The translations under genes were made by a program, and so were the position numbers. DNA of 64,000 bases from Fibrobacter sp. (lineage in GTDB: Bacteria > Fibrobacterota > Fibrobacteria > Fibrobacterales > Fibrobacteraceae), in contig JAFPWY010000008.1 of NCBI GenBank assembly GCA_017412605.1, positions 124,001 to 188,000 of the forward strand. Reading direction: 5' to 3'. The notes below the pieces were generated by a model, which ran no database searches, was not told the origin of the DNA, and worked only from the letters and a program-made list of their open reading frames with translations. How positions within the stretch are numbered: position 1 is the first letter of the stretch; each line of letters begins with the position of its first letter. Positions 44,808 to 63,907 of this stretch are shown in pieces.

Positions 44808-47504
44808 TTACTCTAAATTGCGGATTATCGAGTCCAATTTGGCGGTAAATTTCACGGCCCCGTCATAGCACAAATGGTCGAAATCTCCACCCATATTCGA
44901 ATAATCGTGGTAGCCCATCTTGTTCTCATCCATCAGGTAGAAATTGTCGTATTTCTGCACAAGGGAATTGACCTTGCTGATGAGCAATTCTGCAGCCGAG
45001 CGGCGCATTCCATGGCGCCCGTATGTCCCAGTTTTCCGATAATACGGACTCTGGGGGAACACCACGCCGACAACCTTGATTCCCTTGTCCTGAGCGGACT
45101 GGATAACCCTTTCCATAAAACCCAAATTGACATCGGCGCCGTCGCTCACGTCACTGTATGTCGAGTCATTGAGGATTTCGACATACTCTTCTCCTTTGGA
45201 AGCCCAATCCTCGGTGCAGTCGACACGGCGCCAACCCCTAGAAGCGGTATCGATAGGCAAGTCAATATCCAGCCTCGAAATTTCCGCCATCCAGTTCACA
45301 AAGAAATCGTCAACCCCATCAATCCAGTAACCATGATTTCTGTCATAAGTGAAGCCCTTGGAATTCTGCGTGATGGCCTGGATGTCCTTATCGGGAGTCA
45401 GATATTGCCACATATCCGGATCGATGCTCAGCACCAGATACTTGAGTTTGGGCATATGCATATACAGGTAGTTGTTCACCAGGAATTCATAGCACTCCCC
45501 TTGGCAGGCGAGAATACCCAGGTTTAGTGCAAACTTGCTCATCCGCTCCGGAATCATGCCGGCCCACAATCTCGAAATACCCAGCCCGACCAGTTCGGTA
45601 GAATCCTTGTATTGCCACAACAAGCCCATCTTGCGTGCGAAAAGGGGACCCGCATCCGCATACTGACCCAGACTATCCAAATCCCAGACCGCCGATGTCG
45701 ACGGAGCCTGTTTTACCCAAAGGCTCGGATGCCACACCTCCTCGCCCGCGACCAGTTCCACGATATTGGAGGTTTCCAGATTCGCCGCCACGATTTTCTG
45801 ATGGGCACCATCGGCATTCGCAATCGTTGCCACAAACCTGCCACTGGAATTCTTCAGCCATTCCGTATGGTCAAACGTAAAGCCATCAGGCGCCTCCATG
45901 TAGTTTACAAGTTCTCCCGTGCTATCGGCAACAAGAACCACGCCATGCGTACCATAATCATGCCCGACAAAAGATTTCCCCCTGGCGCCTCCAAAATCGA
46001 GGAATAAAGTTTGGCGAAGAGAATCCGCGCTCAAGGAAACGTTGCAGGCCTGTTCGCCATCGTACCATGTTTCCACAGAACCATCCCGATAAGCCTTCAG
46101 CAACTTGCTTCCCGTCACGGCAAACTTGCCATCCGGCGACACTCCCCCATGGAAGGCGCCATCCATCAACTTGGACGGTTTACCGAACTTCCCTTTCGAG
46201 AAGGGAACCTGCCATGTGCTAGCCGAATTCCAGACAGATTCGTCGTTGTGCCCTGCGTATGTCACGTAGACAATGGCCGTATCGCCATTTTCAAGAACAC
46301 GCCAGCGCGGGATAGCCGCATTTTCGACATCGAGGCGCACAAGCCCGCTACCGGAAGCATCCAGGTTGCGCACATAAACGGAAGACTTTCCGGAAGCACC
46401 TTCGAGTCCTGTACAGAAGGCAACCTTGCTTCCATCGGGAGATATATCGGGGTGATAGGCGTCTATGTCATCCTTTATTTCGAACAGCTGAGGGTTGCCC
46501 AAGGTAAAATCGACAAAGGCGAGGTTTCCGGAGACATCGTTGCGGAATACCAGCTTGGCGGTCCCCTTCCCCGTCAAGGTCCTGATGGCGGACGCCCCCA
46601 CCAAGACAGTCGCTCCAGACAGGCCATCATCACTTACCTTGGTCGCCCACGACGGATCAGGAATTTTGCCAAAAGCCAGACGGAAACCGACATAATCCGA
46701 TTTCGAAATCGGCGTCACAAAATACACGTCACCGCGGCTATAGTAATTGATTGCGGATGGAGAGTTCCTGAAGGAGCCACCCTTGATGACGATTTCTTCC
46801 AGGTTCGCCACCTCGCGCCTTCCGACAAAGTCGACATACACAGAATCATGCAGGTCGGAAAGTTTGTCATTCACCCATTCCATGACGTTGCCGGCCATGT
46901 CGCAAATGCCGTGGCTATCCTTTCCAGCGGAACAGACCTCGTGAGCTCTGTAGCTGGAGTTTTCGCTGTTCCAGCTCCTGGAAGCATCCCAGTCCATCGA
47001 TGCGGTAAATGTCCATTCCGCTTCGGTCGGCAGTCGGAAAGCCTCCTTTTGAGGATTGAAAACAAGCCCGACCAGCTCGGTACAGGAGCCTCGATCGTCA
47101 AAGACAGCTTTAGTATAAGTGTAGGCCGTGTCATAGCCCAATTTAACGCTCTGCGCATTCGCATAGAGAATTGCGTCGTAGTAGGTAACGTTGGTTGCCG
47201 GCATGGAACTTGCGCAATCAAGCCCCATCTCCCCGCAAGTCACCTCGTGCTTGCCTATATAAAAGTCATAATCGAACGAGACCCCCATCGAAGGGCGATC
47301 CTTCTTGCTTGCGTTCACGTCGTCCGTTCCGAGCAAGACAGACCGGCCCTTTGCAGATACCTGCACTAGGCAATTGTCCGCATCCAGACAAAGAACGGGA
47401 TACTTCGCAGAAGGATCCTCACTCGTGACCTGGGAATTCGAACAACCATTCCAAAGCAGGAAAGACGAACCCAGAGCAAGCAACAAGATTTTTTTTGCGT
47501 TCAT
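44808..47504 (-). CDS. TIGR02171-type lipoprotein: SUMF1-like fold, propeller, SGNH-like domain
   Basis: The product has 898 residues. Lipobox WNGC near residue 20 predicts a lipid-anchored protein. Residues about 45-275 have the formylglycine-generating-enzyme fold signature (EVTCGEMG, RLPTEAEW, GNVMEWVND, VIKGGSFRN...YSRGDVYFV..GFRLAFG) but no catalytic Cys pair. Residues about 310-600 show propeller blades (YHPDISPDGSKVAFCTGLEG, AIPRWRVLENGDTAIVYVT). Residues about 640-898 resemble an SGNH hydrolase: GISRLWAG (Ser in the G-x-S-R position), KVVGVVFPQSPYY, and late DHLCYDGA. It is a solitary paralogue of the operon at 53-64 kb. Role unknown. ATG 47504 is preferred over 47510 for its GGATG site. 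Confidence 0.85.
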   Translation of the reverse strand: MNAKKILLLALGSSFLLWNGCSNSQVTSEDPSAKYPVLCLDADNCLVQVSAKGRSVLLGTDDVNASKKDRPSMGVSFDYDFYIGKHEVTCGEMGLDCASSMPATNVTYYDAILYANAQSVKLGYDTAYTYTKAVFDDRGSCTELVGLVFNPQKEAFRLPTEAEWTFTASMDWDASRSWNSENSSYRAHEVCSAGKDSHGICDMAGNVMEWVNDKLSDLHDSVYVDFVGRREVANLEEIVIKGGSFRNSPSAINYYSRGDVYFVTPISKSDYVGFRLAFGKIPDPSWATKVSDDGLSGATVLVGASAIRTLTGKGTAKLVFRNDVSGNLAFVDFTLGNPQLFEIKDDIDAYHPDISPDGSKVAFCTGLEGASGKSSVYVRNLDASGSGLVRLDVENAAIPRWRVLENGDTAIVYVTYAGHNDESVWNSASTWQVPFSKGKFGKPSKLMDGAFHGGVSPDGKFAVTGSKLLKAYRDGSVETWYDGEQACNVSLSADSLRQTLFLDFGGARGKSFVGHDYGTHGVVLVADSTGELVNYMEAPDGFTFDHTEWLKNSSGRFVATIANADGAHQKIVAANLETSNIVELVAGEEVWHPSLWVKQAPSTSAVWDLDSLGQYADAGPLFARKMGLLWQYKDSTELVGLGISRLWAGMIPERMSKFALNLGILACQGECYEFLVNNYLYMHMPKLKYLVLSIDPDMWQYLTPDKDIQAITQNSKGFTYDRNHGYWIDGVDDFFVNWMAEISRLDIDLPIDTASRGWRRVDCTEDWASKGEEYVEILNDSTYSDVSDGADVNLGFMERVIQSAQDKGIKVVGVVFPQSPYYRKTGTYGRHGMRRSAAELLISKVNSLVQKYDNFYLMDENKMGYHDYSNMGGDFDHLCYDGAVKFTAKLDSIIRNLE

Positions 47505-47554
47505 ACACATCCAATATAGCTATTTGGGCATTCTATGAATGCTATATTTCTTCC

Positions 47555-48307
47555 ATGTTTTCCGAGAAAAAGTTTTTAGCGACCAAGGAGACATCCAAGG
47601 CAAAGCGCATGGCTGAGCTCCTGCGCGTCATCATCCTGCAGCTGGGTGACGACGTTCCACGCGCAAAACGCGAATACGAGACCTACGCCGAATGGATGCA
47701 CCTCCCCGAAAGCGAACGGCTAATCGGCAAAAATCAGGCACAAATGATCGACCTCTACAAGACTTTCCGCACGCGGGCAGGACTTGGATTTGAACGAGAC
47801 GTGTACCTGGAACAGGAGCCGGGAGACCGCGAAGTCGCAAACGAAAAGCCAATCCCGTTCGCCGTGCTCGTGCATAACCTGCGCAGCGCATTCAACGTGG
47901 GCTCCATCATCCGCAGCACGGACTGTTTTGGGCTCGAAGGCGTCCACCTGAGCGGCTACAGTTGCGGTCCCGACCACGTGACCGTGAAGAGCGCTGCCCG
48001 CGGCTGTCAGGAATGGATTCCCATCAAGCGCTGGGAAAGTCCGTTCGATTGCGTCAAGTGGCACAAGGAAAACGGCTACGAGATTATCGCACTCGAAACC
48101 GGCGAAGACATTCCAAGCATCAACAAAGTCACCTGGCCTGAAAAAGGCCTAATCATCCTCGGTAACGAGGAATTAGGAATCGCCCCCGAGCTTATGGCAG
48201 AGGCGACAATGAAGGTGACAATTCCCATGGCGGGTCGCAAAGCGAGCATGAACGTAGCCGGAGCGTTTGCGATTATGGCGTTCTGTCTCAGAAGCAGCCA
48301 ACCGTAA
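47555..48307 (+). CDS. SpoU/TrmH-family RNA 2'-O-methyltransferase
   Basis: The product has 250 residues. After a helical N-terminal region (MFSEKKFLATKETSKAKRMAELLRV) comes the knotted SPOUT catalytic domain with motif 1 LVHNLRSAFNVGSIIRSTDCFGLEGVHL, motif 2 GLIILGNEELGI, and motif 3 IPMAGRKASMNVAGAFAI. These are the three SpoU signatures. The RNA target (tRNA Gm18 or 23S rRNA) cannot be decided. The ATG at 47555 is chosen because upstream codons overlap the divergent lipoprotein promoter. Confidence 0.92.
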   Translation: MFSEKKFLATKETSKAKRMAELLRVIILQLGDDVPRAKREYETYAEWMHLPESERLIGKNQAQMIDLYKTFRTRAGLGFERDVYLEQEPGDREVANEKPIPFAVLVHNLRSAFNVGSIIRSTDCFGLEGVHLSGYSCGPDHVTVKSAARGCQEWIPIKRWESPFDCVKWHKENGYEIIALETGEDIPSINKVTWPEKGLIILGNEELGIAPELMAEATMKVTIPMAGRKASMNVAGAFAIMAFCLRSSQP

Positions 48308-48338
48308 GCCAACACTCATATCGCTTTTTGGAGCACTT

Positions 48339-49175
48339 ATGAAAACTTGCAGAATTTGCGGACAAACATCAGAAGCAAAATCATACTTTGCCAAAGAAAT
48401 GATGTACCAAAACGCAGGACATTTTGAATATTTCGAATGTCCACACTGCAAGTGTTTGCAAATTGCAACCGTTCCAGACAACCTAAGCGAATACTACGGT
48501 CCCAACTACTACAGCTATACATTGCCCGAGGACACCGTCACACGCAAAGAAACCGAGCACCACAAACGCGTACTCGATGTGGGTTGCGGGGCTGGTGCAT
48601 TGCTCTGCGCCATGGCGGCCACCTCGGGAATAGAAAGTCTCACAGGATGTGACCCGTTTATCGAAAAAGATTTGGCATACGAAAACGGCGTTCAGGTTTT
48701 CAAGAAAAGCGTTCACGAAATGACCGGCGAATACGACATCATCATGCTCAACGATTCTTTTGAGCATATGACGGACCCACACGAGACCTTGGATAGTCTC
48801 AAGAGACTATTGGCAAAAGACGGAGCCATAAAAATGACGCTCCCTATTTATCCGAACATCGCCTTTGACATGTACAAAGAAAATTGGTACCAGCTCGATG
48901 CCCCGCGACATATCTTCTTGCACTCCAAAAACAGTTTAAAGTTGCTCGCAGACCAGCACGGGCTCAAAATCGTCCAAATGATTTTTGATTCCAACAATTC
49001 CGCCATTTTGAGAAGTTACTTGTACACCAAGGGCATCACATTTTGGAAACAAGATCCCAAGGACATTTTCAAATATTTCACGAAAACCGAAATCATCGAA
49101 ATTAATAAAAAGGTGGCCGACGCCAACAAAAAAGGCTATGGCGACCACGCCACAGTCTTTTTTACGCACAAATAA
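48339..49175 (+). CDS. Class I SAM-dependent methyltransferase with N-terminal zinc ribbon
   Basis: The product has 278 residues. Four cysteines in two CxxC-type pairs (CRICGQ, CPHCKC; residues 4-30) form a zinc-ribbon-like start. A Methyltransf_23-type domain follows: VLDVGCGAGALLCAMA (SAM motif I), DIIMLNDSFEHMTDPHETLDSLKRLLAKDGAI, and PRHIFLHSKNSLKLLADQHGLKIV. Proteins with this layout are often linked to methylation of sugars or surface polysaccharides. GGAG sits 7 bases before the ATG. It lies 31 bases after the SpoU gene and may be co-transcribed. Confidence 0.88.
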   Translation: MKTCRICGQTSEAKSYFAKEMMYQNAGHFEYFECPHCKCLQIATVPDNLSEYYGPNYYSYTLPEDTVTRKETEHHKRVLDVGCGAGALLCAMAATSGIESLTGCDPFIEKDLAYENGVQVFKKSVHEMTGEYDIIMLNDSFEHMTDPHETLDSLKRLLAKDGAIKMTLPIYPNIAFDMYKENWYQLDAPRHIFLHSKNSLKLLADQHGLKIVQMIFDSNNSAILRSYLYTKGITFWKQDPKDIFKYFTKTEIIEINKKVADANKKGYGDHATVFFTHK

Positions 49176-49192
49176 CAGAGCTGTATATAGGC

Positions 49193-50398
49193 TTACTTCG
49201 CCAAAGCCTTCACAGCATCAGTCAAGCGATCGATAGCCTGAATGAGTTCATCCATCTTGGCCTCGCTTACACCACCGGCAACGGCAGCAGGCACATTCGC
49301 TACAGCAGCAGCGGCTTCGGCAGCAGGCTTCGGAGATTCCTTCACCGGAACCTTGCCCAGCCAAATGTCCGGCCAGCGGTCATTACCCGTGTGGTAGGTA
49401 ATGCGGGTCGCGGTTTCCACCGGTTCGCCAATCTTCCAGATGTAGAGTTCGTAGTCGAACAGGTCGTGGTCATGACCTTTGTCGGTTGCACCCCAGACAA
49501 GCCACTTGCCATCGGGAGTGAGACGCGGGAAATATTCGTGGCTGCGGCGACCGGGCAGGTCCATAAGCTTCACGTTCTTAGGAATACCGAAGAAGCCGAC
49601 CTTTTCGACCTGCTTGCCATCCTTAGCCGAGAACCAAAGGATTTCACTCGGGGCTGCGGTACCACCGTTACCCGTCGGGTTCACACGGTAAAGTTTGCTA
49701 CCGTCAAAATTCCAGTCAATCTGGCAGCCGTCACCGGACTTGGTCCACACGGACTTTTCCAAATCCCACACGCCCGTCTCGCGCATAGAACCGCGGAGCG
49801 TGATAGCCAGGTGCTTTCCGTCGGGGCTCATATTGGGCTCCTGCAGAATCACGCCGGACTTATTGAAAGCCTTCTCGCCATCTAGGACCATCTTTTCAGC
49901 CTTGCTCGAAAGATCCATTGTAAAGACCTTGCCGGCACGGCTGAACACGATTGACTTACCATCGGGTCTCCAGGTGCCCCATGTGGCATTGTCCACCACT
50001 TTGCGGGCATTTTCACCCGTAATATCGACCATCCAAAGGTCCCACTTTTCCGGGTAGTTCGCATCGTTTTCGGGAACCCAACCACCCTTGCTGCGGTTGA
50101 ACAGAACCGTAGAGCCGTCCGGAGAAATGCGCGGGAACCAGTCCACGTTGTCACCGCTCGTAAGCGCACGGGCGTTCGTACCGTCGGCATTCATAATCCA
50201 AATATCGTGATGGGAGTTTGCACGACTCGTTGCCCAGACAATGGCACCTTCAAGCTTTCCCTTGAGGGCGGAAAGAGCCTTCTGCTCGTCGGCTGTCGGG
50301 TCAACGGCGGCACCCGTCGGGGCTCCCTGTTGGGCAAAAATCGAAGTCACGGCAAAAAGCACCGCTGTTGCAAACTTAGGATAAATAGTTTTTTTCAT
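49193..50398 (-). CDS. Secreted TolB/PD40-like beta-propeller protein
   Basis: The product has 401 residues with a signal peptide (FATAVLFAVTSIFA-QQ). Repeated blades such as DIWIMNADGTNARALTSGDNVDWFPRISPDGSTVLF and WDLWMVDITGENARKVVDNATWGTWRPDGKSIVFS are typical of TolB-type propellers, with six or so blades between about 55 and 345. An Ala/Pro-rich linker and a short helical tail (MDELIQAIDRLTDAVKALAK) follow, the latter possibly a coiled coil. Such proteins scaffold others in the periplasm. The propeller resembles the middle domain of the TIGR02171-type lipoproteins in this window. It is convergent with the methyltransferase gene, 17 bases apart. Confidence 0.85.
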   Translation of the reverse strand: MKKTIYPKFATAVLFAVTSIFAQQGAPTGAAVDPTADEQKALSALKGKLEGAIVWATSRANSHHDIWIMNADGTNARALTSGDNVDWFPRISPDGSTVLFNRSKGGWVPENDANYPEKWDLWMVDITGENARKVVDNATWGTWRPDGKSIVFSRAGKVFTMDLSSKAEKMVLDGEKAFNKSGVILQEPNMSPDGKHLAITLRGSMRETGVWDLEKSVWTKSGDGCQIDWNFDGSKLYRVNPTGNGGTAAPSEILWFSAKDGKQVEKVGFFGIPKNVKLMDLPGRRSHEYFPRLTPDGKWLVWGATDKGHDHDLFDYELYIWKIGEPVETATRITYHTGNDRWPDIWLGKVPVKESPKPAAEAAAAVANVPAAVAGGVSEAKMDELIQAIDRLTDAVKALAK

Positions 50399-50427
50399 AA
50401 AAAGACCTTTTTATGCGTGGAAAAATA

Positions 50428-50472
50428 CAAAAAAAAAGCAGGAAAGGAATTTCACCACATCCTTTCCTGCCC
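50428..50472 (-). terminator. Terminator of the GH8 gene
   Basis: GCAGGAAAGGA / TCCTTTCCTGC (11-bp perfect stem) followed by more than eight T residues on the minus strand, 21 bases after the stop at 50493. Confidence 0.9.
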
Positions 50473-50492
50473 CTTATCAATTACAAATCGAG

Positions 50493-52013
50493 TTACTTGA
50501 TACTAAACATGCGAATTTTGGCCGTACCGGCAGACTGCACACGCACCAAGTAGGTTCCGCTAGGCAAATCGGCCAGGGAAACGCTCGTGGAGTTGTCCGC
50601 ACTGGCACGGAACGACTTGACGACAACACCCGTGACAGAGGTGATGGCCACACGGGCATCCACATGCAAGTTCAGCTGAAGCACGCGTCCATGCACAGAG
50701 AACGATTCCGCCGGAAGCAATGCAGAGGCCGCGATAGCATTGGCAGCAGAACTGCTGGATGCAGGTTCAACATCCTTGCTGCTAGAGTTGGGCTGCACAG
50801 GAGCCGAGCTGCTGGAAACAGGTCCCGGCGCAACACTGCTGGAAGATTCGGACGGAGAAGACTCGGGTCCGGCACTGGAACTCTGCGGAGCCGCAGGAGG
50901 ATTGGCGAAGTTCGGCATGTTACCCGAAACGAGGAGACCGCAAAGGACCTTCATGGACTGCTCGAAATAGGCTTCGTCACCCAAGCTAACAGCTTCCGCC
51001 CAATAGGCATCCAATTTTCCCTGATTCGAAGCATCCGTAACCAAGGACGTCATCAACGTTGCGACAAAAGTACTGTTGTGGTCGTTCCACATCTGCTCTC
51101 CGCCACGTTCAATCGTTCCCTTGATTTCCGCCGGATTCTTGCCACTCACCCACTTTCCAAGCTTGTCGAGCATCGTCTTTGCCTTTGACTCTCCGAACCA
51201 ATAGAAGTCCTGAGCCAAGCGCCAGGGCGTGCGGGCTGCATCGTACCCATAGTACTTATCCATGCCCTTTCCGCTGGCATCACACCAGTTGTCGAAAAGG
51301 CCCGTAGAGTATTCCGCCGAATTGGCTTCGAGCAAAGTATAGTTGGCATTCAGCGCCGTGGTTTTCCAAAACTCGGCATTTTCTGTATCCACTTCTGCAA
51401 AAAGCTTGTAATATGCAGGAGCCGCATACGAAGGATTCTTTTTGTCGTTCCATGCATCGCCCGGCTTGTGCAATCCGTTTTCTTCAAACTCGTACTTCTT
51501 TACGTTCTGCAAAAGTGTACGCGCTTCGTCGAGATACTTTTCGTCGCCAAACTGGTACGAGGCCATGATCAAGGCGGCAGCGACATCCATTTCAGCGTCG
51601 GTCGCAGCATTGGCCTTGTTATCCGACGGAGTCAAGGTTCCAAACGCCCAATTCATGAGGCCGTGCTCGTTGGAGCCAGCCTTGTAGAACGCCCACAGTT
51701 TATCGAACTGGGACTGATAGCTCGTCGTGTTGTCGCTGAAATAGACCATCATCAACATGCCGTAGCCGGTTCCTTCCGAAACATAGCTACCCGGGTCTTT
51801 TTCAATAGCGGCATACGAACCGTTTTCCTTGTACTTGTTCTTCAAGTAGTAGTCAAACGCCGCCTTCAACTGTGCGGCCGATTCAGTCGGATTCGAAAGC
51901 ACAATACCGTTTCCACCATAATTGGTGCTCTGCGGGTACGGGAAATTGACCGTCGCCTGTGCCAAGCCGAACGCAAACAGAGACGAGACCGCTATTTTTA
52001 CCAAACCATTCAT
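50493..52013 (-). CDS. GH8 endoglucanase/xylanase with Ser-rich linker and C-terminal sorting-like domain
   Basis: The product has 506 residues and probably cleaves beta-1,4 linkages in cellulose, mixed-linkage glucan or xylan. A signal peptide (VSSLFAFGLAQA) leads to the GH8 (alpha/alpha)6 domain (about 22-375). The presumed acid is Glu80 in SYVSEGTGYGML, the presumed base lies in YGYDAARTPWR (Asp258), and ATDAEMDVAAAL (Asp139) matches the third acidic site. A Ser/Pro linker (about 380-425) is followed by a C-terminal domain (SVTGVVVKSFRASADNSTSVSLADLPSGTYLVRV) reminiscent of type IX secretion sorting domains, distinct from the module on the GH11 enzymes. Confidence 0.93.
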   Translation of the reverse strand: MNGLVKIAVSSLFAFGLAQATVNFPYPQSTNYGGNGIVLSNPTESAAQLKAAFDYYLKNKYKENGSYAAIEKDPGSYVSEGTGYGMLMMVYFSDNTTSYQSQFDKLWAFYKAGSNEHGLMNWAFGTLTPSDNKANAATDAEMDVAAALIMASYQFGDEKYLDEARTLLQNVKKYEFEENGLHKPGDAWNDKKNPSYAAPAYYKLFAEVDTENAEFWKTTALNANYTLLEANSAEYSTGLFDNWCDASGKGMDKYYGYDAARTPWRLAQDFYWFGESKAKTMLDKLGKWVSGKNPAEIKGTIERGGEQMWNDHNSTFVATLMTSLVTDASNQGKLDAYWAEAVSLGDEAYFEQSMKVLCGLLVSGNMPNFANPPAAPQSSSAGPESSPSESSSSVAPGPVSSSSAPVQPNSSSKDVEPASSSSAANAIAASALLPAESFSVHGRVLQLNLHVDARVAITSVTGVVVKSFRASADNSTSVSLADLPSGTYLVRVQSAGTAKIRMFSIK

Positions 52014-52087
52014 AGGCTATCCTTAAAGTGTTTTACGCCTGATGCAACATTCATCAAACATCCGCAATAAAAATAATGAATTATTCG

Positions 52088-52122
52088 AAAAATAGGGCAC
52101 ACCGCAGGAAACTTGCGTGTCC
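52088..52122 (-). terminator. Possible terminator of the TIGR02171 operon
   Basis: On the minus strand GGACACGCA pairs with TGCGGTGTGCC (one bulge) and is followed by TATTTTTCG, about 27 bases after the stop codon at 52149. Confidence 0.45.
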
Positions 52123-52148
52123 AACATCACTTTTTTACCTGCGAAATC

Positions 52149-53621
52149 TTACCTTTCGCTGACAAGATTCCGAAAATTGTGATTTAGAACAATGTAGAGA
52201 GAATCACGGTACACCACTTCCCAATCCTTTTGCTGTTCAAGCGCCGAGACCAGCTGACCCCAGCGAGCATAATAACGGAGTGGGAAAATGGCACGACCGA
52301 CCTGTAGCGAATCGGCATCGCGCAAGAACAGCGCAGGGTCATCGGCATAGAGCAGATAACGTTCAAAGAAATCCGCCGTCTTGAGGATAAAGCGCCCGTC
52401 AATGTAAATGGGATCGTCCGGATTCACGAATGCGAGATACCCGCCAGCACGGTCGTCGTTGAAAAGTCTCCCTTCATGCGGATGCGAGGCCATCCAGGCG
52501 GCGGCTTCTACCGGCACACGCTGGAAAGCAATCATGGACGAATCGTACATGAGGAGGGAGCGAACCCACAGGCCGAGAAGGAAAAAGAGCAAGCAAGTGG
52601 GAACGACTAGTAGTTGGCGGTTAGGGACGAACGTGACCAAGCCATACAGAAACACAGGCATAAACAGCACGAAGTTGCGCTCGGCAATAAGCGCAAGGAC
52701 TGCCGTTGCAAAAAGGCAGATATGAATCAAGCCGAGCCGCCCCTTGAGCGCATTCCAAACGGCAATCACGAGAGCGACGATACACAGGGCAATCATTACC
52801 ACGCATTCCAGGACATTCTCCCCCGCCATCAGGAGCGTCAAAGGCGAGCGGTTCTCGGCAATCTCGCTTGCAAATACCGCAGCCGACGGACTCATTCCGA
52901 CAAGACGGTCCAGCAGTCCGAACGGATAGAGGAACAGGTTCAGCCCCTCGCCGTGCAGGAAGGGCATCGCAAACAAGGCAAGTACACTGGCGACATGAAA
53001 GAACCGGAACCTTTTCGGCAACTTTATTTTCAACCGCCAGGCATCCAACCATACAGAAACGAGTACCGCCACCGCAAAAAGCGGGCCTAAGATATAAAGC
53101 CCCTGGCACTTGCACCAAAGCCATTGAACGACAAGGACGAAAAGGAGAAGGAAATAGGTTCGAGGCTTGAGGTGTGAGGCACGAAAAATGTGTGGAAGAA
53201 GGTTCCAGTAGATTCCAAGGAACAATAGCGAAAAGAGTACGGGGCGGATTTCGAAGTGATAGCGGAAAATGAAAAGGACTAGTGTAGCAAGCGCAGCACC
53301 GGCAAGTGCAGCGGGCTTACTCAGACTTTCTGCACAAAGTTTCCTTTGCGGCAACAGGAACAGCGCAAAAACGACGCCCCACAGCAAAGCCTTGAACGCA
53401 ACCAGGAGCGGAGCACCCCCTATGCCATAGACAAAGCCCACCACCCTCTGGAAATATTCGTGGACATTGACTACCGGCGAGCGGGAGGGTGTCCAGGTCT
53501 GCACCCACTCGCGAGCGCAAGCCAGATGCCACCAGATATCCGTATCCGTCAACGGAAATACAGAGAACAGGGCGGCGGCGAAAGCCACCAAAATCAACAT
53601 CCTGTTCGTTTTCGCTGACAT
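52149..53621 (-). CDS. Polytopic membrane protein, GT-C-like, last gene of the TIGR02171 operon
   Basis: The product has 490 residues with about ten hydrophobic segments across residues 8-360. An early acidic motif DTDIWWHLACAREW sits in the first extracytoplasmic loop, where GT-C glycosyltransferases that use polyprenyl-phosphate sugars carry their catalytic Asp. The C-terminal 120 residues are soluble (AAAWMASHPHEGRLFNDDRAGGYLAFVNPDDPIYIDGRF). This layout resembles GT39/GT83-like or uncharacterised DUF membrane transferases. The start lies 7 bases after the lipoprotein stop at 53629, so it belongs to the lipoprotein operon. A sugar transferase acting on those lipoproteins is conceivable but not shown. 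Confidence 0.75.
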   Translation of the reverse strand: MSAKTNRMLILVAFAAALFSVFPLTDTDIWWHLACAREWVQTWTPSRSPVVNVHEYFQRVVGFVYGIGGAPLLVAFKALLWGVVFALFLLPQRKLCAESLSKPAALAGAALATLVLFIFRYHFEIRPVLFSLLFLGIYWNLLPHIFRASHLKPRTYFLLLFVLVVQWLWCKCQGLYILGPLFAVAVLVSVWLDAWRLKIKLPKRFRFFHVASVLALFAMPFLHGEGLNLFLYPFGLLDRLVGMSPSAAVFASEIAENRSPLTLLMAGENVLECVVMIALCIVALVIAVWNALKGRLGLIHICLFATAVLALIAERNFVLFMPVFLYGLVTFVPNRQLLVVPTCLLFFLLGLWVRSLLMYDSSMIAFQRVPVEAAAWMASHPHEGRLFNDDRAGGYLAFVNPDDPIYIDGRFILKTADFFERYLLYADDPALFLRDADSLQVGRAIFPLRYYARWGQLVSALEQQKDWEVVYRDSLYIVLNHNFRNLVSER

Positions 53622-53628
53622 CGACAGG

Positions 53629-56394
53629 TCACCTTTTCTTTTTGCTCAAGAGGGAATCCAGCCGGACAGCCATCTTCTTGGCACCCAACAGTCCCAAGTG
53701 GTCATTGTTGCTAAATTCTTCGTAAGTAAAATCGTGATGGCCGTCGTGATATTCGTCCATTACCGTAAAGTTGGGATACGCTTCCGTCAGTTTCTGCACA
53801 GCCTTCTGCATCACCTTGACTGCCTTCCGTGTCGGCCCATAACGGCCCCATGCTCCGGTCTCAAGATATTTCGGAGACTGCGGATAGACAACACCGACAA
53901 TCTGGACATCATAATACCGGGCAAGATCCAGAATTTCCGAAAGACGGCTCAGGTTGTAGACATAGGCGGAACTGTCATGCGCAAACCAGAGAGAATCATT
54001 GGACACATCAGGATCTCCCTCGCCCCATCCTTCCGTAGTCGAGTGGTAAGTGCCACGATGGTATCCGTACAATTCATATTCGTCTTCAGGCGGATTCAAG
54101 GCGTTCCTCGAAATCTCGTCCATATTTTCCGGGACGCCATCGCTCCAGAATCCATGATTCTTGTCGTACTCGTAACCGGGAATGTCCGAGAACCACGCAA
54201 TCCAATTCTCGTCCTTCACGTACCATCTGTCGTAATCCAGCGTAAGCACGACAACCTTCAATTTCGGCATCAGCGGCAAGATGTAATTCTTGATGTAGAA
54301 CAAGGTTCCTGTCAAGTCCTGGGCAGAATAGGACATGTTTATCGAGAAATGCGACTTGATATATGTAGGGTCCATACCAGCAAAAGACCTGGACGAACCA
54401 ATAATTACCGCTTCAGCAGAATCTCTATACTGCCAGAAATAATCCATTTTCACCTTCATGATGCGAGTCGTCACGTCGGACACTCCCGTCATGTAGATGC
54501 AAGCGCTGTCCAGGTCCAAGCCGTCATCGTCTTCAGAGCGGCGTTCATCAGCAAACCAGAGATTCGGATGCCAAAGTTCATCGCCTTCCACAAGGGTATG
54601 CACATCGCCACTGACCACATTCACGAGCACAATTTCCGTATGTGCGCCTTCCGCATTAGAAAGCGTCGCTACGGCGACACCGGATGATCCCGGCGCCCAT
54701 TCCGTATGGTCAAAAGTACGGCCACTCGGAGCAGGAACAGACCGAAGCAGCTTTCCGGCACTATCTGCCAGGAACAAGCGTTCATGCACCCTGTATTTTT
54801 CGCCAACAAACTTCTGTCCGGTCTCGCCTGCAAAATCCAGGAAAAGGGTTCGCTTGGATCCGTCCTTCGCTAGAGAAGCGTTGCAAGCCTGTTCTCCACC
54901 ATACCACACCGTATCGTAAGCATTGTCCTCGACCGTAGAGCCCGATTCGGCGATACGTGCACGCAGCAACCTCGCCCCCGATACGGCAAGCGTTCCGTCT
55001 TCACTTATTCCGCCATGGTACGCTCCATCAAAAAGTTTCCGAGGCTTGCCGAACTTTCCCCCGGCAAAAGGCACTTCCCAGGTAGAAGTCGCCTTGAATG
55101 CGCCCTCATCCTTGTTGTTGCCCGCATCGCTTACATACACGATAACCGTATCACCGCTGTCAAGGACTCTCCACCGAGGAATCGCGGCACTCTTCACATC
55201 CAGTTTCACAAGATTCGTCCCTTCCGCATTCAGATCGCGCACATACAGCCGAGAACGTCCCGAAACGCCTTCAAGACCGGTACAGAAAGCCACCTTTTTA
55301 CCATCGGGCGATATTTCTGGATGATACACACTGAGCGTATCGTTTATCTCGATGACCGACATGCCGCTTCCCAGATAGTCGATATAGGCAAGGTTTCCGG
55401 ATACATCGTCGCGGAAAGCCAGTTTCACCTTGTTAGAATGCGTATACATTTGCAGCTTCGACAAACTAGCTACAGGAACGACCCTCGAGAAGGACACGTC
55501 GCCACTGGCCGTCATCCAGGTCGGATTGGAGATGGAGCCATATGCCAGACGGAACCCCACATATTCCGCAAACATCGAAGAAGTCACGGTATAGACATCC
55601 CCACGGCTGTAGCGCGTTATAGAAGAAGCCCCATTGCGGTAGCTTCCCCCCTTAAGGATCCTCTCTTCAAGGGAGCCCCCGTCCGAAGCCCCCACGTAGT
55701 TGGAAACAACCGTATCGCGGAATTTTCCAAGCCAGTCATTCACCCACTCCATCGCATTGCCAATCATATCACAGATTTCGTCTTCTTCGGCAAGGCTGCA
55801 AACTGGGTGCAACTTGTAATCCGAATTTTCGGCAGTCCAACCTTTGGCGCTCTCCCAATTTTTTGATGCGGCATACACCCATTCCGCCTCCGTGGGTAAA
55901 CGGACCGCATTGACTTCGGGATGGAACACGAGGCCTTCTAGATGAATACAATGATGTTCCCGGTCATAGGTCACCGAACTGTACGTATACGACGTATCAA
56001 CGTTCCAAGCCTTGCTCTTTGCATTTGCATAAAGGACCGCATCATAATAGGTAACGTTTGTCACCGGGACATTCTCATCTTCGCAATTGACCGCATAACC
56101 ATGCGATGGTCCCATCAGGTTATTAAACTCGCCGCAGGTGACCTCATGGCGCATCATGAAAACGCCGTCTTCCAAAACAACGCGCATTTGCGGACGTTCG
56201 CTTGCAGGAGCCTTCTTGTTGTTGGTTCCCAGCAAGACTTCTACATTGGCATCACTGATCCGGCGCCAATCCCTTTCCAATTCAGAACTATTGTCCACCG
56301 GCGTTTCCGCGTTGGGGGGAGCAAGGTCAACCGACGAACATGCGAACAGACACAAGCCAAACAGTCCCACCGTCATCTTATTGATAATACGCAT
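53629..56394 (-). CDS. TIGR02171-type lipoprotein, full length (paralogue 1)
   Basis: The product has 921 residues. Lipobox LFAC (Cys19 or so). FGE/SUMF1-like fold about 45-275 (RLPTEAEWVYA, GNAMEWVNDWLG, ILKGGSYRN, YSRGDVYTV, GFRLAYG); the Cys residues needed for formylglycine formation are replaced, so it is not a formylglycine enzyme. The propeller region runs from about 305 to 610 (YHPEISPDGKKVAFCTGLEG). The SGNH-like domain (about 645-921) has GSSRSFAGMDP, GVVYPQSPKYL and a late NNDHLGLLGAKK, which would supply Ser, Asp and His. The ATG at 56394 follows GGAG at 5 bases. The product differs from its neighbours mostly in the SGNH region. Confidence 0.86.
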   Translation of the reverse strand: MRIINKMTVGLFGLCLFACSSVDLAPPNAETPVDNSSELERDWRRISDANVEVLLGTNNKKAPASERPQMRVVLEDGVFMMRHEVTCGEFNNLMGPSHGYAVNCEDENVPVTNVTYYDAVLYANAKSKAWNVDTSYTYSSVTYDREHHCIHLEGLVFHPEVNAVRLPTEAEWVYAASKNWESAKGWTAENSDYKLHPVCSLAEEDEICDMIGNAMEWVNDWLGKFRDTVVSNYVGASDGGSLEERILKGGSYRNGASSITRYSRGDVYTVTSSMFAEYVGFRLAYGSISNPTWMTASGDVSFSRVVPVASLSKLQMYTHSNKVKLAFRDDVSGNLAYIDYLGSGMSVIEINDTLSVYHPEISPDGKKVAFCTGLEGVSGRSRLYVRDLNAEGTNLVKLDVKSAAIPRWRVLDSGDTVIVYVSDAGNNKDEGAFKATSTWEVPFAGGKFGKPRKLFDGAYHGGISEDGTLAVSGARLLRARIAESGSTVEDNAYDTVWYGGEQACNASLAKDGSKRTLFLDFAGETGQKFVGEKYRVHERLFLADSAGKLLRSVPAPSGRTFDHTEWAPGSSGVAVATLSNAEGAHTEIVLVNVVSGDVHTLVEGDELWHPNLWFADERRSEDDDGLDLDSACIYMTGVSDVTTRIMKVKMDYFWQYRDSAEAVIIGSSRSFAGMDPTYIKSHFSINMSYSAQDLTGTLFYIKNYILPLMPKLKVVVLTLDYDRWYVKDENWIAWFSDIPGYEYDKNHGFWSDGVPENMDEISRNALNPPEDEYELYGYHRGTYHSTTEGWGEGDPDVSNDSLWFAHDSSAYVYNLSRLSEILDLARYYDVQIVGVVYPQSPKYLETGAWGRYGPTRKAVKVMQKAVQKLTEAYPNFTVMDEYHDGHHDFTYEEFSNNDHLGLLGAKKMAVRLDSLLSKKKR

Positions 56395-56410
56395 GGTCAC
56401 TCCGTAAATA

Positions 56411-59134
56411 TTACAAGCCCTTCAGCTTGGCATCAACCCTTTCACTCATCTTATAAGCACCAATATAGCTCAGATGGTCCATATTGTAGCCCATAGATTC
56501 GTCCTTGTAATCGTGATCTCCCCACTTATTTTCATCCATCCACACGATATCGTACTTTTGGAGGGAATCAAATAATTCCTTTGTAACAGAGCGTCTCGGG
56601 CCGTATATCCCGTATGCCCCCGTATCTTTGTATCCAGCATGGCGAGGAATCACAAGAGCAACAACAGTCACCTTGTGTTTCTTGCACATATCAACAATGG
56701 ATTCGAACACTTTCATGTTCACATCGACAATCGCATCGTCCAAATTCATCGCCATCGTATCTACGGCCACATCAGGAGTATACCAGGACGTTGACGGCAA
56801 CAGGAAATTCTCGAAATCGTAAGGATGCATCAGAACGGAAATGGGTTTCGGAGCATCCTTTACCGCCTCGATAAACCCGTTCGGGATGCTGTCCACCCAG
56901 AATCCGTGATTGGCATCGTAAGCATAGCCGACTGCATTTTCCAAAACGGGATTCCAAGATTCATCGGCGTTACGCCAGAACATATCGGGCGAAATTTCCA
57001 AGACAAGGTACTTGAAACGAGGCAGATGATTGAACATGTAATTTTTCAACAGATATTCCGCACCGTAGAGGTCGCCCGAAGAATACGCCATGTTCAACAT
57101 ATTCACCGACGTGAACGATTTTTCGTACAAGCCGAACAACATGCGAGAGCTGCCCATCGCCACCGCCGTGACAGAATCCATGCGGGTCCAGAAGTTTTCC
57201 ATTTTCACGCGGAGTTCCACAGAGTAATAGGGCAAGCGGTCGCTGTAGTACATGCCGGCACTATCAATATTCACGTTGCCCTCGCCATTCATCGACAACT
57301 CCGGATTGACCCACAGGCAGGGATGCCACAGTTCATCACTCTCGGCAAGGATAATCGTACTGGAATCGCCCAAATCCGTCAGCGAGATTTGCGAATGGTT
57401 TCCGGAAGACGTCACCAGCGTTCCCACAATCAAATTCGTATTCGACACCCACTCCACATGATCGAACGTATATCCCTCAGGAGCCTTAACGGACTGAATT
57501 AACCGTCCTGTACTGTCGGCAACTAGAATATATTCATGGACAGCGTATTTTTCGCCCACAAAGTTGTCTTCGGTTCTATCTCCAAAATCCAGGAATGCCG
57601 TTCGTTTAGAACCATCCTTAGAAAGAGAAACGTTACAAGCCTGCTTGCCACCATACCAAAGGGAATCTTTGTCCGACATCCGGGCGCGCAACAGCCTCGC
57701 TCCAGAAACAGCAAGACCAAGGTCATCACTAACGCCACCGTTGTAGGTTCCGTCAAACAGTTTTTGGGGTTTCCCAAACTTGCCGCCAGAGAAACCGACC
57801 AGCCAAGTTGACTGCGCCTTCCAGGTTGCCTCGTCGTCATTTGTTCCGCAATCGGTCACGTAGACAATCACCGTGTCCCCAGCCTCGGTCACTTTCCAGC
57901 GGGGAATGGCTGCACTTTCCACATCCAACCTGACCACCTTGGAATCCACAGCCTTCAAGTCACGCACATAGAGGGTCGACTTTCCGGGAACCCCCTCGGC
58001 CTTCGTGCAGAACGCGACCTTGCTTCCATCGGGCGAAATGTCGGGATGGTAGGAATCAATCGTATCGGCAATTTCCAGAACAGATAGCGTCCCGTTCATG
58101 TAATCGATAAAGGCGATATTCCCCGAATTCTCGTTACGGAACGCCAGCTTGGAATGGAAAGTCCCCGTTTTTGTACGCACATTCATCGATGATGCCGTGG
58201 GGAAAACCCTGGAACTCGTAGCGACCCCATTTTCACTGAGCCACACAGGATCCGGAATTGCCCCAAAGGCAAGGCGGAAACCGACATAGGGGGCAACCGT
58301 CGACGAGGTCACCGTATAAATATCCCCACGGGAATAGAGATTAATCGCGGCAATGTCGTCCCTGTAGGAACCGCCCTTGAGAACACGTTCCCCGAGGCTG
58401 CCACCATCAGGAGCTCCGACATAGTTCACGACCGTCGTATCGCGGAAAAAGCCCAGCCAGTCGTTCACCCACTCCTTGACGTTCCCTTCCATATCGCAAA
58501 GTCCCGAAGTGCGAGCGCCCTTGGTGCAATAGTCGTGCAAATCGTAGCCAGAATTTCCGCCATTCCAGGATATTTCCGGAACAAAATCAAGGGACGCCGC
58601 ATACACCCATTCCGCTTCTGTCGGCAATCGGTAGCCTTCAACGTCAGGATGGAAAACAAGGTCTGCCATGTTGATGCAGTTCCCGATATTGTTGAAGTTC
58701 TTCTGCGAGTACGAGTAAACCGTATCATAACCTTCACTCATACTTTTTTTATTAGCCATCAAGATAGCGTCGTAGTAGGTAATGTTACGAATGGGCAAGA
58801 AACGGTTTTCTTCGTCGGCTGCGCCTCCCATCACCTCGGCATACTCGGCATGAGTGACTTCATGAGCGCTGATAGAATAATCGTAGGTGAATTCCACCTT
58901 CATGCGGGGACGTTCACGCGATGTCGAAAGCGTGTCGTCTGTACCCAAAAAAACAGAATATCCCGTAGAACGGATTTTCACCATTCCCAAATGTTGCAGG
59001 TCGTTTTCCGCATAGTCGTATCCTTCCTGAACATTTGGAATATTAGGCTGCGACAATTTCTCTATGGAATCCGTGCACGCCAAAAAAACAGGAACCAAGA
59101 CAACTAAAAAGAAAAACCGAATAGACCTCGTCAT
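56411..59134 (-). CDS. TIGR02171-type lipoprotein, full length (paralogue 2)
   Basis: The product has 907 residues. Signal and lipobox FLAC (MTRSIRFFFLVVLVPVFLACTDS). FGE-like fold about 50-280 (HEVTHAEYAEVMGG, RLPTEAEWVYA, GNVKEWVNDWLGFF, VLKGGSYRD) and then propeller blades (YHPDISPDGSKVAFCTKAEG). The SGNH-like region carries GSSRMLFGLYE, VVALVIPRHAGY (where paralogue 1 has VYPQSPKY) and a late DHLSYIGAYKM. CTG (Thr-Gly) after the lipobox Cys is absent here. Spacing to the neighbouring genes is 16 and 26 bases. It is the paralogue most different in the nucleophile loop. Confidence 0.86.
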   Translation of the reverse strand: MTRSIRFFFLVVLVPVFLACTDSIEKLSQPNIPNVQEGYDYAENDLQHLGMVKIRSTGYSVFLGTDDTLSTSRERPRMKVEFTYDYSISAHEVTHAEYAEVMGGAADEENRFLPIRNITYYDAILMANKKSMSEGYDTVYSYSQKNFNNIGNCINMADLVFHPDVEGYRLPTEAEWVYAASLDFVPEISWNGGNSGYDLHDYCTKGARTSGLCDMEGNVKEWVNDWLGFFRDTTVVNYVGAPDGGSLGERVLKGGSYRDDIAAINLYSRGDIYTVTSSTVAPYVGFRLAFGAIPDPVWLSENGVATSSRVFPTASSMNVRTKTGTFHSKLAFRNENSGNIAFIDYMNGTLSVLEIADTIDSYHPDISPDGSKVAFCTKAEGVPGKSTLYVRDLKAVDSKVVRLDVESAAIPRWKVTEAGDTVIVYVTDCGTNDDEATWKAQSTWLVGFSGGKFGKPQKLFDGTYNGGVSDDLGLAVSGARLLRARMSDKDSLWYGGKQACNVSLSKDGSKRTAFLDFGDRTEDNFVGEKYAVHEYILVADSTGRLIQSVKAPEGYTFDHVEWVSNTNLIVGTLVTSSGNHSQISLTDLGDSSTIILAESDELWHPCLWVNPELSMNGEGNVNIDSAGMYYSDRLPYYSVELRVKMENFWTRMDSVTAVAMGSSRMLFGLYEKSFTSVNMLNMAYSSGDLYGAEYLLKNYMFNHLPRFKYLVLEISPDMFWRNADESWNPVLENAVGYAYDANHGFWVDSIPNGFIEAVKDAPKPISVLMHPYDFENFLLPSTSWYTPDVAVDTMAMNLDDAIVDVNMKVFESIVDMCKKHKVTVVALVIPRHAGYKDTGAYGIYGPRRSVTKELFDSLQKYDIVWMDENKWGDHDYKDESMGYNMDHLSYIGAYKMSERVDAKLKGL

Positions 59135-59160
59135 GATACCCGTAAATATACAAACACACG

Positions 59161-61908
59161 CTAAGGTGGCGTTATACCTTCCAAGCTATCAAGCAGCGTA
59201 TTCAAACGGGCTGTTAACACTTCTGCGCCCAATCCGCTCAAATGATCCCTATTGGAGGCCATGGGATTACTATAGTCGTGGTCTCCCATCTTATTTTCGT
59301 CCCAGAATATAAAATGCGGGTAAACGGATTTCAGATCCTGGATTTCCTTCAACAATGCCGGGGCCTCGCTCCTGCGAATCCCGTAACGTCCAAACGAGCC
59401 CGTATTCTTGAAATTCGGACTTTGCGGGAAAACAATGCCGATAACGTACACATTATGGTTTTCTGCAATTTTCAGAATATTTTCGAAATGCGCAAGAGCC
59501 GCATAGAAATTCTCCGAGTGGGAATCCATCCACGTACTGTCAAAATCAACACTCGGCTCATCTTCCCAATCCCCCGGGGTCGAATAATCGTATCCCATCG
59601 TACTCAACAGATGCGTTGCGTAGTATTCCAAGCCCAACGAAATCTGGGTCAGTTCAGCAAGTCCCTCCGGGTATCCGTTTTTCCAGAAATCATGGTTCTC
59701 GTCGTAAACATACCCCGGATGCTTTTTGTAATCCATGTAGAAGAAATTGTATTCGCTTTGTTCATCCTTGTGCCACAAGTCGATGTCCAAAGAAACGACA
59801 AGGTACTTCAGGTTCTTCACATGGGGGAAAACATAATTACTGGCAAGGTAATCCGAGACCACCATCATATTCGGGACATTGGACATATTCAACATCCTAA
59901 AGGGTTCCCGCATGTTTTGAGGGATAATTCCCCCTTGAGAACGCGACGATCCTAGCACAACCACGTTGGCCCAGTCCCTGTACGTCCATAGCAATTCAAG
60001 TTTATAGCGCAAGATAATCGCCGTAACATCGTCCGCCACCTTAAAGTAGAGGCCGGCGCTGTCCAAATCAAGCGAGACATTTTGCACGGCATTCCCCTGT
60101 TGGCTCCACAAGGCGGGATGCCAAAGTTCATCCCCTTCGGCAAGGTCTACGATACTCCCGTCGAGAAGGTTTACAAGGACAATCTTCTCGTGAGCGCCAT
60201 TGGAATTCGTCAATGTTGCAACAGCCATGTCCCCAGCCGAGCCCCATTCGCTATGATCAAACGTATAACCCGCAGGCGCCACAACTGAACGAATCAGGTT
60301 TCCAACGCTATCCACCACCAGGATTCTCGCATGCGTGCTATAGTTTTCACCAACAAAAGTCCGTCCTGTCATTCCCCCAAAATCCAGGAACAACGTACGC
60401 TTGCTGCCATCCTTGGCCAAAGAAGCATTGCAGGCCTGTTCCCCATTATACCAAATAACGTCCTGTCCCAAGACATTTGCCCGAAGAAGGCGGGCTCCAG
60501 TCACCGCAAACAAATTATCGTTACTGACACCACCATGATACGCCCCGTCGAACAGTTTCTCTGGGACACCAAAGACGCCGTTAGCAAACCGCACTTGCCA
60601 AGTAGAAGCCAACTTGAAGGTAGCGTCATCCGCATTATTGCCAGCATCCGTCACGTAAACAATAGCGGTATCGCCATTTGCCAGAACACGCCAACGCGGG
60701 ATAGCAGCCGATTCCACTTCCAGTTTCACGAGGTTTGTTCCATCAGCATTCAAGTCCCGCACATAGAGAGCAGACTTGCCCGGCACGCCCTCAAGGCCCG
60801 TACAGAAAGCGACCTTCTTTCCGTCGGGAGAAATGTCCGGATGGTATGCATCGATCGTATCTGCAATTTCAACTACCGAAAGCACGCCTTCTGCATAATC
60901 AACAAATGCGATATTCCCCGTCTGATCGTTGCGGAAAGCAAGCTTCGTGCGGAACGTACCCGTCATAGAGCGGATTGTCGATGAGCTCGCCAACAAGAGC
61001 AAACGGCTCGTCGTCGCATTTCCACTCGAGTTCATCCAGGTCGCCCCGGGAATCTTACCGAAGGCAAGTCTGAATCCGACATAATCAGCACGCGTCGAAG
61101 AAGTCACCGTATAGATATCGCCACGGGAGAAAATGTTCAAGGCAGAAGGATCTGTGCGATAGCCGCCGCCCTTGACAATGCGCTGTCCAAGAGAGCCCCC
61201 ATCGGGAGCACCCACGTAATTCGACAGCGTCGTATCGCGGAAGTTGCCGAGCCAGTCATTCACCCACTCCATCGCATTCCCGGCCATGTCACAAAGAGCA
61301 TTTTCATCAGCAACAGCCGAACAAACGTCATGCAGCACGTAGCCCGAATTACCGGCATTCCAACTCAAATCAAGGTCCCAACTCTGAACCGCAGCAAAGA
61401 CCCATTCCGCCTCGGTCGGCAGGCGGTACCCGTCAACATCCGGATGGAAAGCAAAGCCCTCCAAGTTCGTGCAATGACCTTCCGCATCAAGATCCGCCTG
61501 GACATAGGAATAAACCGTATCGAAATTTTCAGCCTTACTCCGGGCATTGGCAAATAAAACCGCATCGTAATAGGTCAAATTCGTGGCAGGAAGATTTTCG
61601 CCGGCACATTGCAAAAAGGCGCCTGTAATAGGCATCATCAAGCTATTGTATTCTCCGCACGTCACCTCATGACGCCCAATCAGAAAATCATAATCGAAAT
61701 GCACCGGCATTATCGGGCGCTCATTAGCCTTCGCCGTAGCAACATCCGTTCCCAATATGACCTGCTGCGTATTCGACGCAACTCCAAGCATCCCCGGCAG
61801 AGATTCCTCTGCATACAACGCGGGGAGAGCTTCCGTCGACGAATCGTCAGAACCCACACATGCAGACAAAAATATGACTGAAATTATGGCAATTAAGGCC
61901 AACTTCAT
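59161..61908 (-). CDS. TIGR02171-type lipoprotein, full length (paralogue 3)
   Basis: The product has 915 residues. Lipobox LSAC (MKLALIAIISVIFLSACVGS). FGE-like fold (CGEYNSLMMP, RLPTEAEWVFA, GNAMEWVNDWLG, IVKGGGYRT, FSRGDIYTV, GFRLAFG), propeller (YHPDISPDGKKVAFCTGLEG, AIPRWRVLANGDTAIVYVTD), and SGNH-like domain with GSSRSQGGI, YVIGIVFPQSPNFKNTG and a late RDHLSGLGAEV. It is closest to paralogue 1 in the propeller. It ends with ITPP. Read from the same transcript as its neighbours (26 and 21 bases apart). Confidence 0.86.
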   Translation of the reverse strand: MKLALIAIISVIFLSACVGSDDSSTEALPALYAEESLPGMLGVASNTQQVILGTDVATAKANERPIMPVHFDYDFLIGRHEVTCGEYNSLMMPITGAFLQCAGENLPATNLTYYDAVLFANARSKAENFDTVYSYVQADLDAEGHCTNLEGFAFHPDVDGYRLPTEAEWVFAAVQSWDLDLSWNAGNSGYVLHDVCSAVADENALCDMAGNAMEWVNDWLGNFRDTTLSNYVGAPDGGSLGQRIVKGGGYRTDPSALNIFSRGDIYTVTSSTRADYVGFRLAFGKIPGATWMNSSGNATTSRLLLLASSSTIRSMTGTFRTKLAFRNDQTGNIAFVDYAEGVLSVVEIADTIDAYHPDISPDGKKVAFCTGLEGVPGKSALYVRDLNADGTNLVKLEVESAAIPRWRVLANGDTAIVYVTDAGNNADDATFKLASTWQVRFANGVFGVPEKLFDGAYHGGVSNDNLFAVTGARLLRANVLGQDVIWYNGEQACNASLAKDGSKRTLFLDFGGMTGRTFVGENYSTHARILVVDSVGNLIRSVVAPAGYTFDHSEWGSAGDMAVATLTNSNGAHEKIVLVNLLDGSIVDLAEGDELWHPALWSQQGNAVQNVSLDLDSAGLYFKVADDVTAIILRYKLELLWTYRDWANVVVLGSSRSQGGIIPQNMREPFRMLNMSNVPNMMVVSDYLASNYVFPHVKNLKYLVVSLDIDLWHKDEQSEYNFFYMDYKKHPGYVYDENHDFWKNGYPEGLAELTQISLGLEYYATHLLSTMGYDYSTPGDWEDEPSVDFDSTWMDSHSENFYAALAHFENILKIAENHNVYVIGIVFPQSPNFKNTGSFGRYGIRRSEAPALLKEIQDLKSVYPHFIFWDENKMGDHDYSNPMASNRDHLSGLGAEVLTARLNTLLDSLEGITPP

Positions 61909-61929
61909 GTTTTTAAAAATAAAAAAACA

Positions 61930-63876: not shown

Positions 63877-63907
63877 ATTTTTCAATCTAAAAAAATAATC
63901 CACTTCT

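Follow-up and report, generated by a model that had tools for sequence, protein, structure and literature searches.

The window, that is, the whole stretch of 64 kb of DNA that was analyzed (G000:C7:124001-188000), belongs to a Fibrobacter-type genome of 3.5 Mb. Five of its open reading frames, all on the minus strand, match the NCBIfam family TIGR02171 in a profile search. Four of these, named here by their lower coordinate as 44808, 53629, 56411, and 59161, are full length, and their products score 1044–1252 bits against the family cut-off of 544. The name and description of TIGR02171 in NCBIfam state neither a function, nor the domain content, nor an SGNH part. The window genome has 11 full-length copies and, of 101 genomes from the bacterial family, 73 have a match above the cut-off.

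Table 1. Features of the window, with block coordinates in nucleotides and, from a motif scan by script, the residue positions of the three motifs in each full-length product
Coordinates	Strand	Feature	SGNH domain	Block I	Block V	Motif residues	Remarks
44808..47510	-	TIGR02171 lipoprotein, 900 aa, three domains	~44811-45680	GISR 45570-45581	DFDHL (canonical DxxH) 44871-44885	GISR 644, VVGVVFP 813, DFDHL 876	
49193..50398		TolB-like propeller protein					signal-peptide-like start; adjoins the GH8 gene
50493..52013		GH8 enzyme					T9SS sorting tail
52149..53621	-	490-aa predicted polytopic membrane protein					last gene of the conserved string
53629..56400	-	TIGR02171 lipoprotein, 923 aa	53632-54516	GSSR 54388-54399	NNDHL 53695-53709	GSSR 668, IVGVVYP 834, NNDHL 898	
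56411..59134	-	TIGR02171 lipoprotein, 907 aa	56414-57271	GSSR 57143-57154	NMDHL 56471-56485	GSSR 661, VVALVIP 824, NMDHL 884	divergent middle block VVALVIPRHAGY
59161..61908	-	TIGR02171 lipoprotein, 915 aa	59164-60075 (modelled)	GSSR 59941-59952	NRDHL 59239-59253	GSSR 653, VIGIVFP 822, NRDHL 886	
61930..63939	-	shortened TIGR02171 lipoprotein, 669 aa as called					FGE-like and propeller domains only
63908..64000	-	transglutaminase-like gene (PF13369), 3' end					runs on beyond the window; the AlgX-domain gene precedes it

Most of these genes lie in a string that spans 52149-63939 and continues to G000:C7:193513. The order of transcription is a further TIGR02171 gene (L159 4649-7513), an AlgX-domain gene, the transglutaminase-like gene, 61930, 59161, 56411, 53629, and the membrane protein gene 52149. 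The AlgX-domain gene, located outside the window at C7:188682-190613, matches PF16822 with an E value of 7.9e-20 and carries the motifs D-T-H-W and G-D-S-F, while the transglutaminase-like protein matches PF13369 at 3.3e-9. Pfam gave no match for the membrane protein, either with the window copy or with 11 homologues. A TDTDIWWH stretch is near-invariant in its N-terminal part, and the D-x-D near its first membrane span recalls GT-C glycosyltransferases.

The string recurs elsewhere. In a neighborhood sample of 109 other loci, fetched for TIGR02171 alone, homologues of the AlgX and transglutaminase-like proteins occur at the same 21 loci, and the membrane protein at 23. There the genes share one strand and one order, namely AlgX, transglutaminase-like, one to several TIGR02171 genes, and the membrane protein. 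The sole exception is locus L117 (76-1623 and 1610-4409), where the membrane protein gene comes first, ahead of the TIGR02171 gene. Other neighbors are not conserved, with SurE found at none of the 109 loci, the rRNA methyltransferase at one, and GH8 at five. Across the 101 genomes of the bacterial family, with a strong TIGR02171 match defined as E < 1e-100, 70 have both TIGR02171 and the membrane protein, five TIGR02171 only, none the membrane protein only, and 26 neither (Fisher 1.8e-19, shared descent being ignored). Almost all the same genomes also have a strong match (E < 1e-70) to the AlgX protein. The link between the TIGR02171 genes and the AlgX-domain gene string is new.

Regarding the fifth copy, 61930 covers the TIGR02171 profile only to position 630 of 912 and is without the SGNH domain; its start probably lies nearer 63876. 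Its end at 61930-62010, PGISVNQEIAKKKLP, is almost identical to PGISVNQEIVKKRLP, with which the transglutaminase-like gene upstream closes, and the two 3' ends are similar over 59 bases, including 19 in an unbroken exact match. Judged from this resemblance, it looks like a rearrangement swapped the SGNH domain for a short piece of the neighbor's 3' end. Open frames of 1595 and 1988 residues were considered as fusions of tandem pairs and rejected, the pair in the window being split by a TGA stop and the other consisting of two separate frames.

TIGR02171 proteins begin with a lipobox, and the model of the full-length mature 59161 product (pLDDT 91.4, pTM 0.87) separates what follows into three parts. 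Residues 15-271 are predicted to adopt an FGE-like fold, with Treponema TvpA (Z 27.7), PvdO (23.2), and PorK (~21) as structural matches and FGE itself at Z 21-22. The catalytic Cys pair of FGE sits at the C-terminal end of its domain; here that end has no Cys, as seen from KGG to GFRLA in all 11 paralogues of the alignment. Residues 287-588 are TolB-like (Z 22.9), and residues 596-899 are the SGNH domain. In the predicted layout of the full-length proteins, a lipobox is followed by an FGE/C-type-lectin-like domain that lacks the FGE cysteines, then by a TolB-like beta-propeller, and finally by the C-terminal SGNH domain.

This last domain was the subject of the initial annotation, which had read the C-terminal third of the TIGR02171 paralogues as SGNH-like on account of a G-[SI]-S-R motif, a V..VFP block, and a near-terminal D-H-L. 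Each of the three is present in all four full-length copies at the positions given in Table 1. The Ile that it singled out as the varying residue in the 44808 product is confirmed as well (GISR, against GSSR in the other three), and the middle block of the 56411 product is indeed set apart, reading ALVIPRHAGYKD against GVVFPQSPxYxxT elsewhere. The placing of G-[SI]-S-R near residues 640-660 is roughly right, with an upper end that is too low, the real range being 644-668.

To obtain a fold, the SGNH domain of the 59161 product was modelled alone with AF2 from an alignment of 92 sequences (pLDDT 96.9, pTM 0.94). In the model, five core strands (38-41, 61-63, 91-95, 210-215, and 255-259) alternate with helices, the Ser of G-x-S follows the first strand, 38-41, and the His precedes the last helix, 281-299. 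The most significant Foldseek matches are SGNH enzymes (PAF acetylhydrolase, E 3.8e-5, and EstL5) and CgnD, with PatB and rhamnogalacturonan acetylesterase lower down and one non-SGNH chain at rank 5 (probability 0.33). VIA-align returned top rows that are SGNH enzymes (Z 11 to 14.5), including PAF acetylhydrolase (PAF-AH; Z 14.4, 3.4 Å over 192 residues), DltD 3bma (Z 13.3, 3.7 Å over 237 residues), and PatB (Z 11.8), and the carbohydrate esterases PbeAcXE and AlAXEase are also among its matches. The larger overlap with DltD probably reflects an insert that the two share. As modelled, the domain has the alpha/beta/alpha sandwich, the Block I Ser, and the Block V His of the SGNH superfamily (Pfam clan CL0264). 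A non-SGNH fold had been named beforehand as an outcome that would speak against the proposal; it did not arise, and the solved structures that match best are SGNH enzymes. On this model, the C-terminal third of the TIGR02171 lipoproteins is almost certainly a divergent SGNH-fold domain.

Profile comparison points in the same direction. Four stand-alone SGNH-like proteins of Fibrobacterota (L131-L134) were aligned with the family profile A2 by hhalign, giving a probability of 99.0 and an E value of 3.6e-18 over 256 columns and bringing Ser, Asn, Pro, and the [DN]xxHL motif into register. Taken singly, the four proteins reach 95–98% against the family profile, and control proteins from the window (SurE, the rRNA methyltransferase, and another methyltransferase) stay below 1% each. 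The genes of two of them, L132 and L133, lie directly 3' of a gene called MBOAT-like from its sequence, and L131-L133 have Pfam matches to DUF1574 (best 1.9e-6), GDSL_2 (0.0024), and DltD (0.0022). A search with one of the four stand-alone proteins, MBOAT-adjacent, as the query retrieves TIGR02171 C-terminal regions in other Fibrobacter genomes (E 1e-4 to 1e-6) as well as the 53629 product of the window (E 1.9e-5, 31% identity), and the reverse search from TIGR02171 recovers the query (E 2.9e-6).

When 92 family domains were scanned singly against Pfam, DltD was the commonest family matched (8 of 92, best E 2.5e-6), with one relative, L126, above its cut-off (25.4 against 22.7); separate single scans of twenty members for DltD matched two. 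Among the window proteins, none reaches the DltD (PF04914) cut-off. The best DUF1574 match in the window, the 56411 product (E 0.029), scores 14.1 bits against a gathering score of 29.1, and membership of DUF1574 (PF07611) was rejected on that score. The SGNH reading of the C-terminal third is therefore upheld by structure prediction and fold search, by the profile-profile match, and by the Pfam DltD, DUF1574, and GDSL matches of family members. One search counts against the overall interpretation given below: a PDB sequence search with profile A2 found no solved structure at E <= 1. The deeper family A6 found PAF-AH only, at E 1.7, and a profile with three bridging proteins reached PAF-AH sequences at E 9.4e-4, a match that is significant only with the bridges. 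In the bridged alignment G-D-S, L-N-F-G, and D-Y-L-H of PAF-AH stand in register with G-x-S, N, and D-x-x-H; the Asp and His of PAF-AH (Asp192, His195) are catalytic.

Three known groups come close to the domain, which is predicted to be of the DltD, or MBOAT-partner, type. DltD (PF04914) and the stand-alone SGNH partners of MBOAT proteins share with it the order S..N..[DN]xxH and a long insert that separates strands three and four, and DltD aligns over 237-247 residues. However, DltD acts alongside DltB/DltX at the cytoplasmic membrane, whereas the TIGR02171 protein is a lipoprotein with two extra domains, often has Asn at the position three before the His (-3), and has no adjacent MBOAT at the loci examined. 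Neither by the window array nor by five other paralogue loci was an MBOAT gene found, the two MBOAT genes of the genome being on contig C1 (C1:41871 and C1:331480). This absence counts against the overall interpretation, and filing the family as DltD was rejected for want of a partner MBOAT (DltB) gene at those loci. The Lipase_GDSL group, with the catalytic subunits of PAF acetylhydrolase Ib, has the same fold, as the Z of 14.4 attests, and the G-x-S of Block I, the N of Block II, and the D/N-x-x-H of Block V line up. Finally, AlgX/AlgJ (PF16822) belong to the SGNH superfamily, and a true AlgX-domain protein is encoded in the same string; AlgX, however, is circularly permuted, with His before Ser and a DxH motif, whereas all TIGR02171 copies have the standard Ser before His, and membership of AlgX was dismissed on that ground.

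The conservation of the domain was followed in 162 distinct C-terminal domains from the window genome, other genomes of its bacterial family, and GTDB genome contigs. All 162 keep both residues of G-x-S that define it, Gly and Ser, as well as the final His, in an alignment with a mean column identity of ~46% and only 15 fully invariant columns among ~300. The four window copies are identical at 42 columns, of which these 15 remain in all 162, and three given columns would survive by chance with p ~0.04; the evidence is therefore the depth of the family and not the four window copies alone. Variation is seen at the middle residue of G-x-S and at the Arg that follows the motif.

A review of the superfamily (PMC9487903) defines its canonical blocks by Ser in Block I, Gly in Block II, Asn in Block III, and D-x-x-H in Block V. 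The initial annotation had proposed the pattern G-x-S / D-x-x-H, and its Ser and His hold, being invariant and in register with Blocks I and V. The Asp of D-H-L, in contrast, precedes the His by one residue instead of three and was ruled out as the Block V Asp on spacing; it is also not invariant (134 of 162). At -3, 83 of the 162 domains have Asp and 76 have Asn, the remainder being two with Gly and one with Ser; in the window, Asp occurs only in the 44808 product and Asn in the other three full-length copies. The Block II position holds Ala (89), Gly (40), Ser (29), or Thr (4), so that the classical oxyanion Gly is not conserved, and the Asn directly preceding it is invariant. The Block III region reads S-L-D-x-D, with D-x-D standing where Asn is expected. 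Read from the alignment, the putative site pairs Ser with His, with an acid that varies and an oxyanion hole that departs from the standard one. Accepted members such as AlgX, PatB1, and SASA also deviate from the canonical oxyanion blocks (PMC9487903), so the domain is placed in the SGNH superfamily by its fold, though not in the canonical GDSL/SGNH group. It is an unlisted SGNH subgroup: the literature searched has no mention of TIGR02171, and Pfam is blank above cut-off for the C-terminal third of the window proteins, in agreement with the earlier impression that this part had received no SGNH assignment.

Taken as a whole, the best explanation, to which we give a probability of about 0.68, is a three-part lipoprotein whose SGNH domain acts through a Ser-His acyl-enzyme on a polysaccharide, together with the partners of the AlgX string. 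The active site would consist of Ser from G-x-S and His from [DN]-x-x-H-L, with an acyl group taken onto the Ser, and the acid would be the -3 Asp or would be missing altogether, a situation known from the Ser-His dyads of CE2 enzymes. A glycan would most likely be bound or positioned by the first two domains, and the SGNH domain would remove the acyl group from the polysaccharide or pass it on to the polysaccharide. The AlgX-domain protein and the membrane protein may work with it, the latter being, speculatively, a candidate acyl donor component. AlgX-type proteins O-acetylate alginate (PMC9487903) and, in MBOAT-SGNH pairs, a Tyr shuttle hands the acyl group on to the Ser of the SGNH partner (PMC12148441). 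Because the genes travel with an AlgX-type acetyltransferase-like gene, the TIGR02171 proteins probably modify sugar polymers; that the domain itself acts on a polysaccharide with the AlgX partner is a tentative proposal, for which we put the odds somewhat below even.

A different role can be drawn from the habitat of Fibrobacter, which is plant fiber. The domain could be a secreted or surface acetyl-esterase for plant polysaccharides such as acetylated xylan, with the paralogues meeting different plant esters. F. succinogenes has characterized SGNH acetylxylan esterases of the SASA family, Axe6A/B (PMC9487903), the window contains a GH8 gene with a T9SS tail, and PbeAcXE and AlAXEase are among the structural matches. 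The arrays nevertheless keep company with AlgX (21 of 109 loci) and the membrane protein (23) far more than with GH8 (5), the proteins are lipoproteins in which Pfam finds no carbohydrate-binding module, and their nearest sequence relatives are MBOAT-partner or DltD-like proteins. We therefore regard the plant-esterase role as having perhaps one chance in four of being correct, and keep the polysaccharide-modifying lipoprotein as the preferred reading.

The variation at Block V raises the further question of whether all copies are enzymes. The fold may have been kept while catalysis was lost in many copies in favor of ligand binding, with the N-type inactive and only the D-type, such as the 44808 product, at work. 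The frequency of Asn at -3 (76 of 162) and the unconserved oxyanion residues are in line with such a loss; both, together with the at least 14 D/N swaps at -3 counted on the tree, weigh against the preferred reading. However, Ser and His are invariant in the N-type copies too, the swaps look like tolerance and not decay, and CE2 esterases and NanS are working enzymes without a Block V Asp (PMC9487903). With the non-standard oxyanion hole of PatB, these examples mean that the missing residues are no strong argument against activity. Widespread loss of catalysis seems unlikely, and the Ser-His pair is probably catalytically active in most copies. The suggestion that the -1 Asp of D-H-L replaces the -3 acid in N-type copies is very doubtful: Asp is missing at both positions in only 4 of 162 domains (sequence-level Fisher p 5e-5), but independent pairs on the tree give no association (median p 1), so that compensation is unsupported once shared descent is counted, and an outgroup member, L165, is without Asp at both.

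In other bacterial families of the phylum, the -3 residue is Asp in 10 of 13 and the -1 residue in only 4 of 13, often as D-x-N-H-L-N, and for this reason D-x-x-H is likely the older form of Block V. In addition, the motifs Y-D-x-N-H, G-x-H-D-Y, and D-[EA]-N are near-invariant in the C-terminal domain and may line the active site. The HDY/DEN motif just upstream of Block V, with D258 and H265 nearly invariant, was considered as a possible alternative acid or metal site.

A broader proposal is that the TIGR02171 arrays are the acceptor-side enzymes of a previously undescribed, MBOAT-free machine of Fibrobacterota for polysaccharide acylation or editing. Its parts would be the AlgX-type SGNH protein, the transglutaminase-like protein, the new polytopic membrane protein standing in for an MBOAT, and SGNH lipoproteins, varying in number, that would choose the glycan through their FGE-like and propeller domains. 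We consider this extension unlikely as it stands, perhaps one chance in five.

TIGR02171 is a large multi-copy lipoprotein family, without an assigned function, of a main fiber-degrading rumen genus, and a Ser-His acyl-enzyme domain would give it a directly testable biochemistry. The conserved AlgX string is a pointer to acylation or de-acylation of glycans at the cell envelope, which would be relevant to the way in which Fibrobacter assembles its surface or breaks into plant fiber. Furthermore, the repeated Asp/Asn exchange at Block V offers a natural experiment on the need of an SGNH site for its acid. As a minor observation on the surroundings, the TolB-like propeller and GH8 genes of the window are neighbors of TIGR02171 arrays in only 4 or 5 of the 109 loci.
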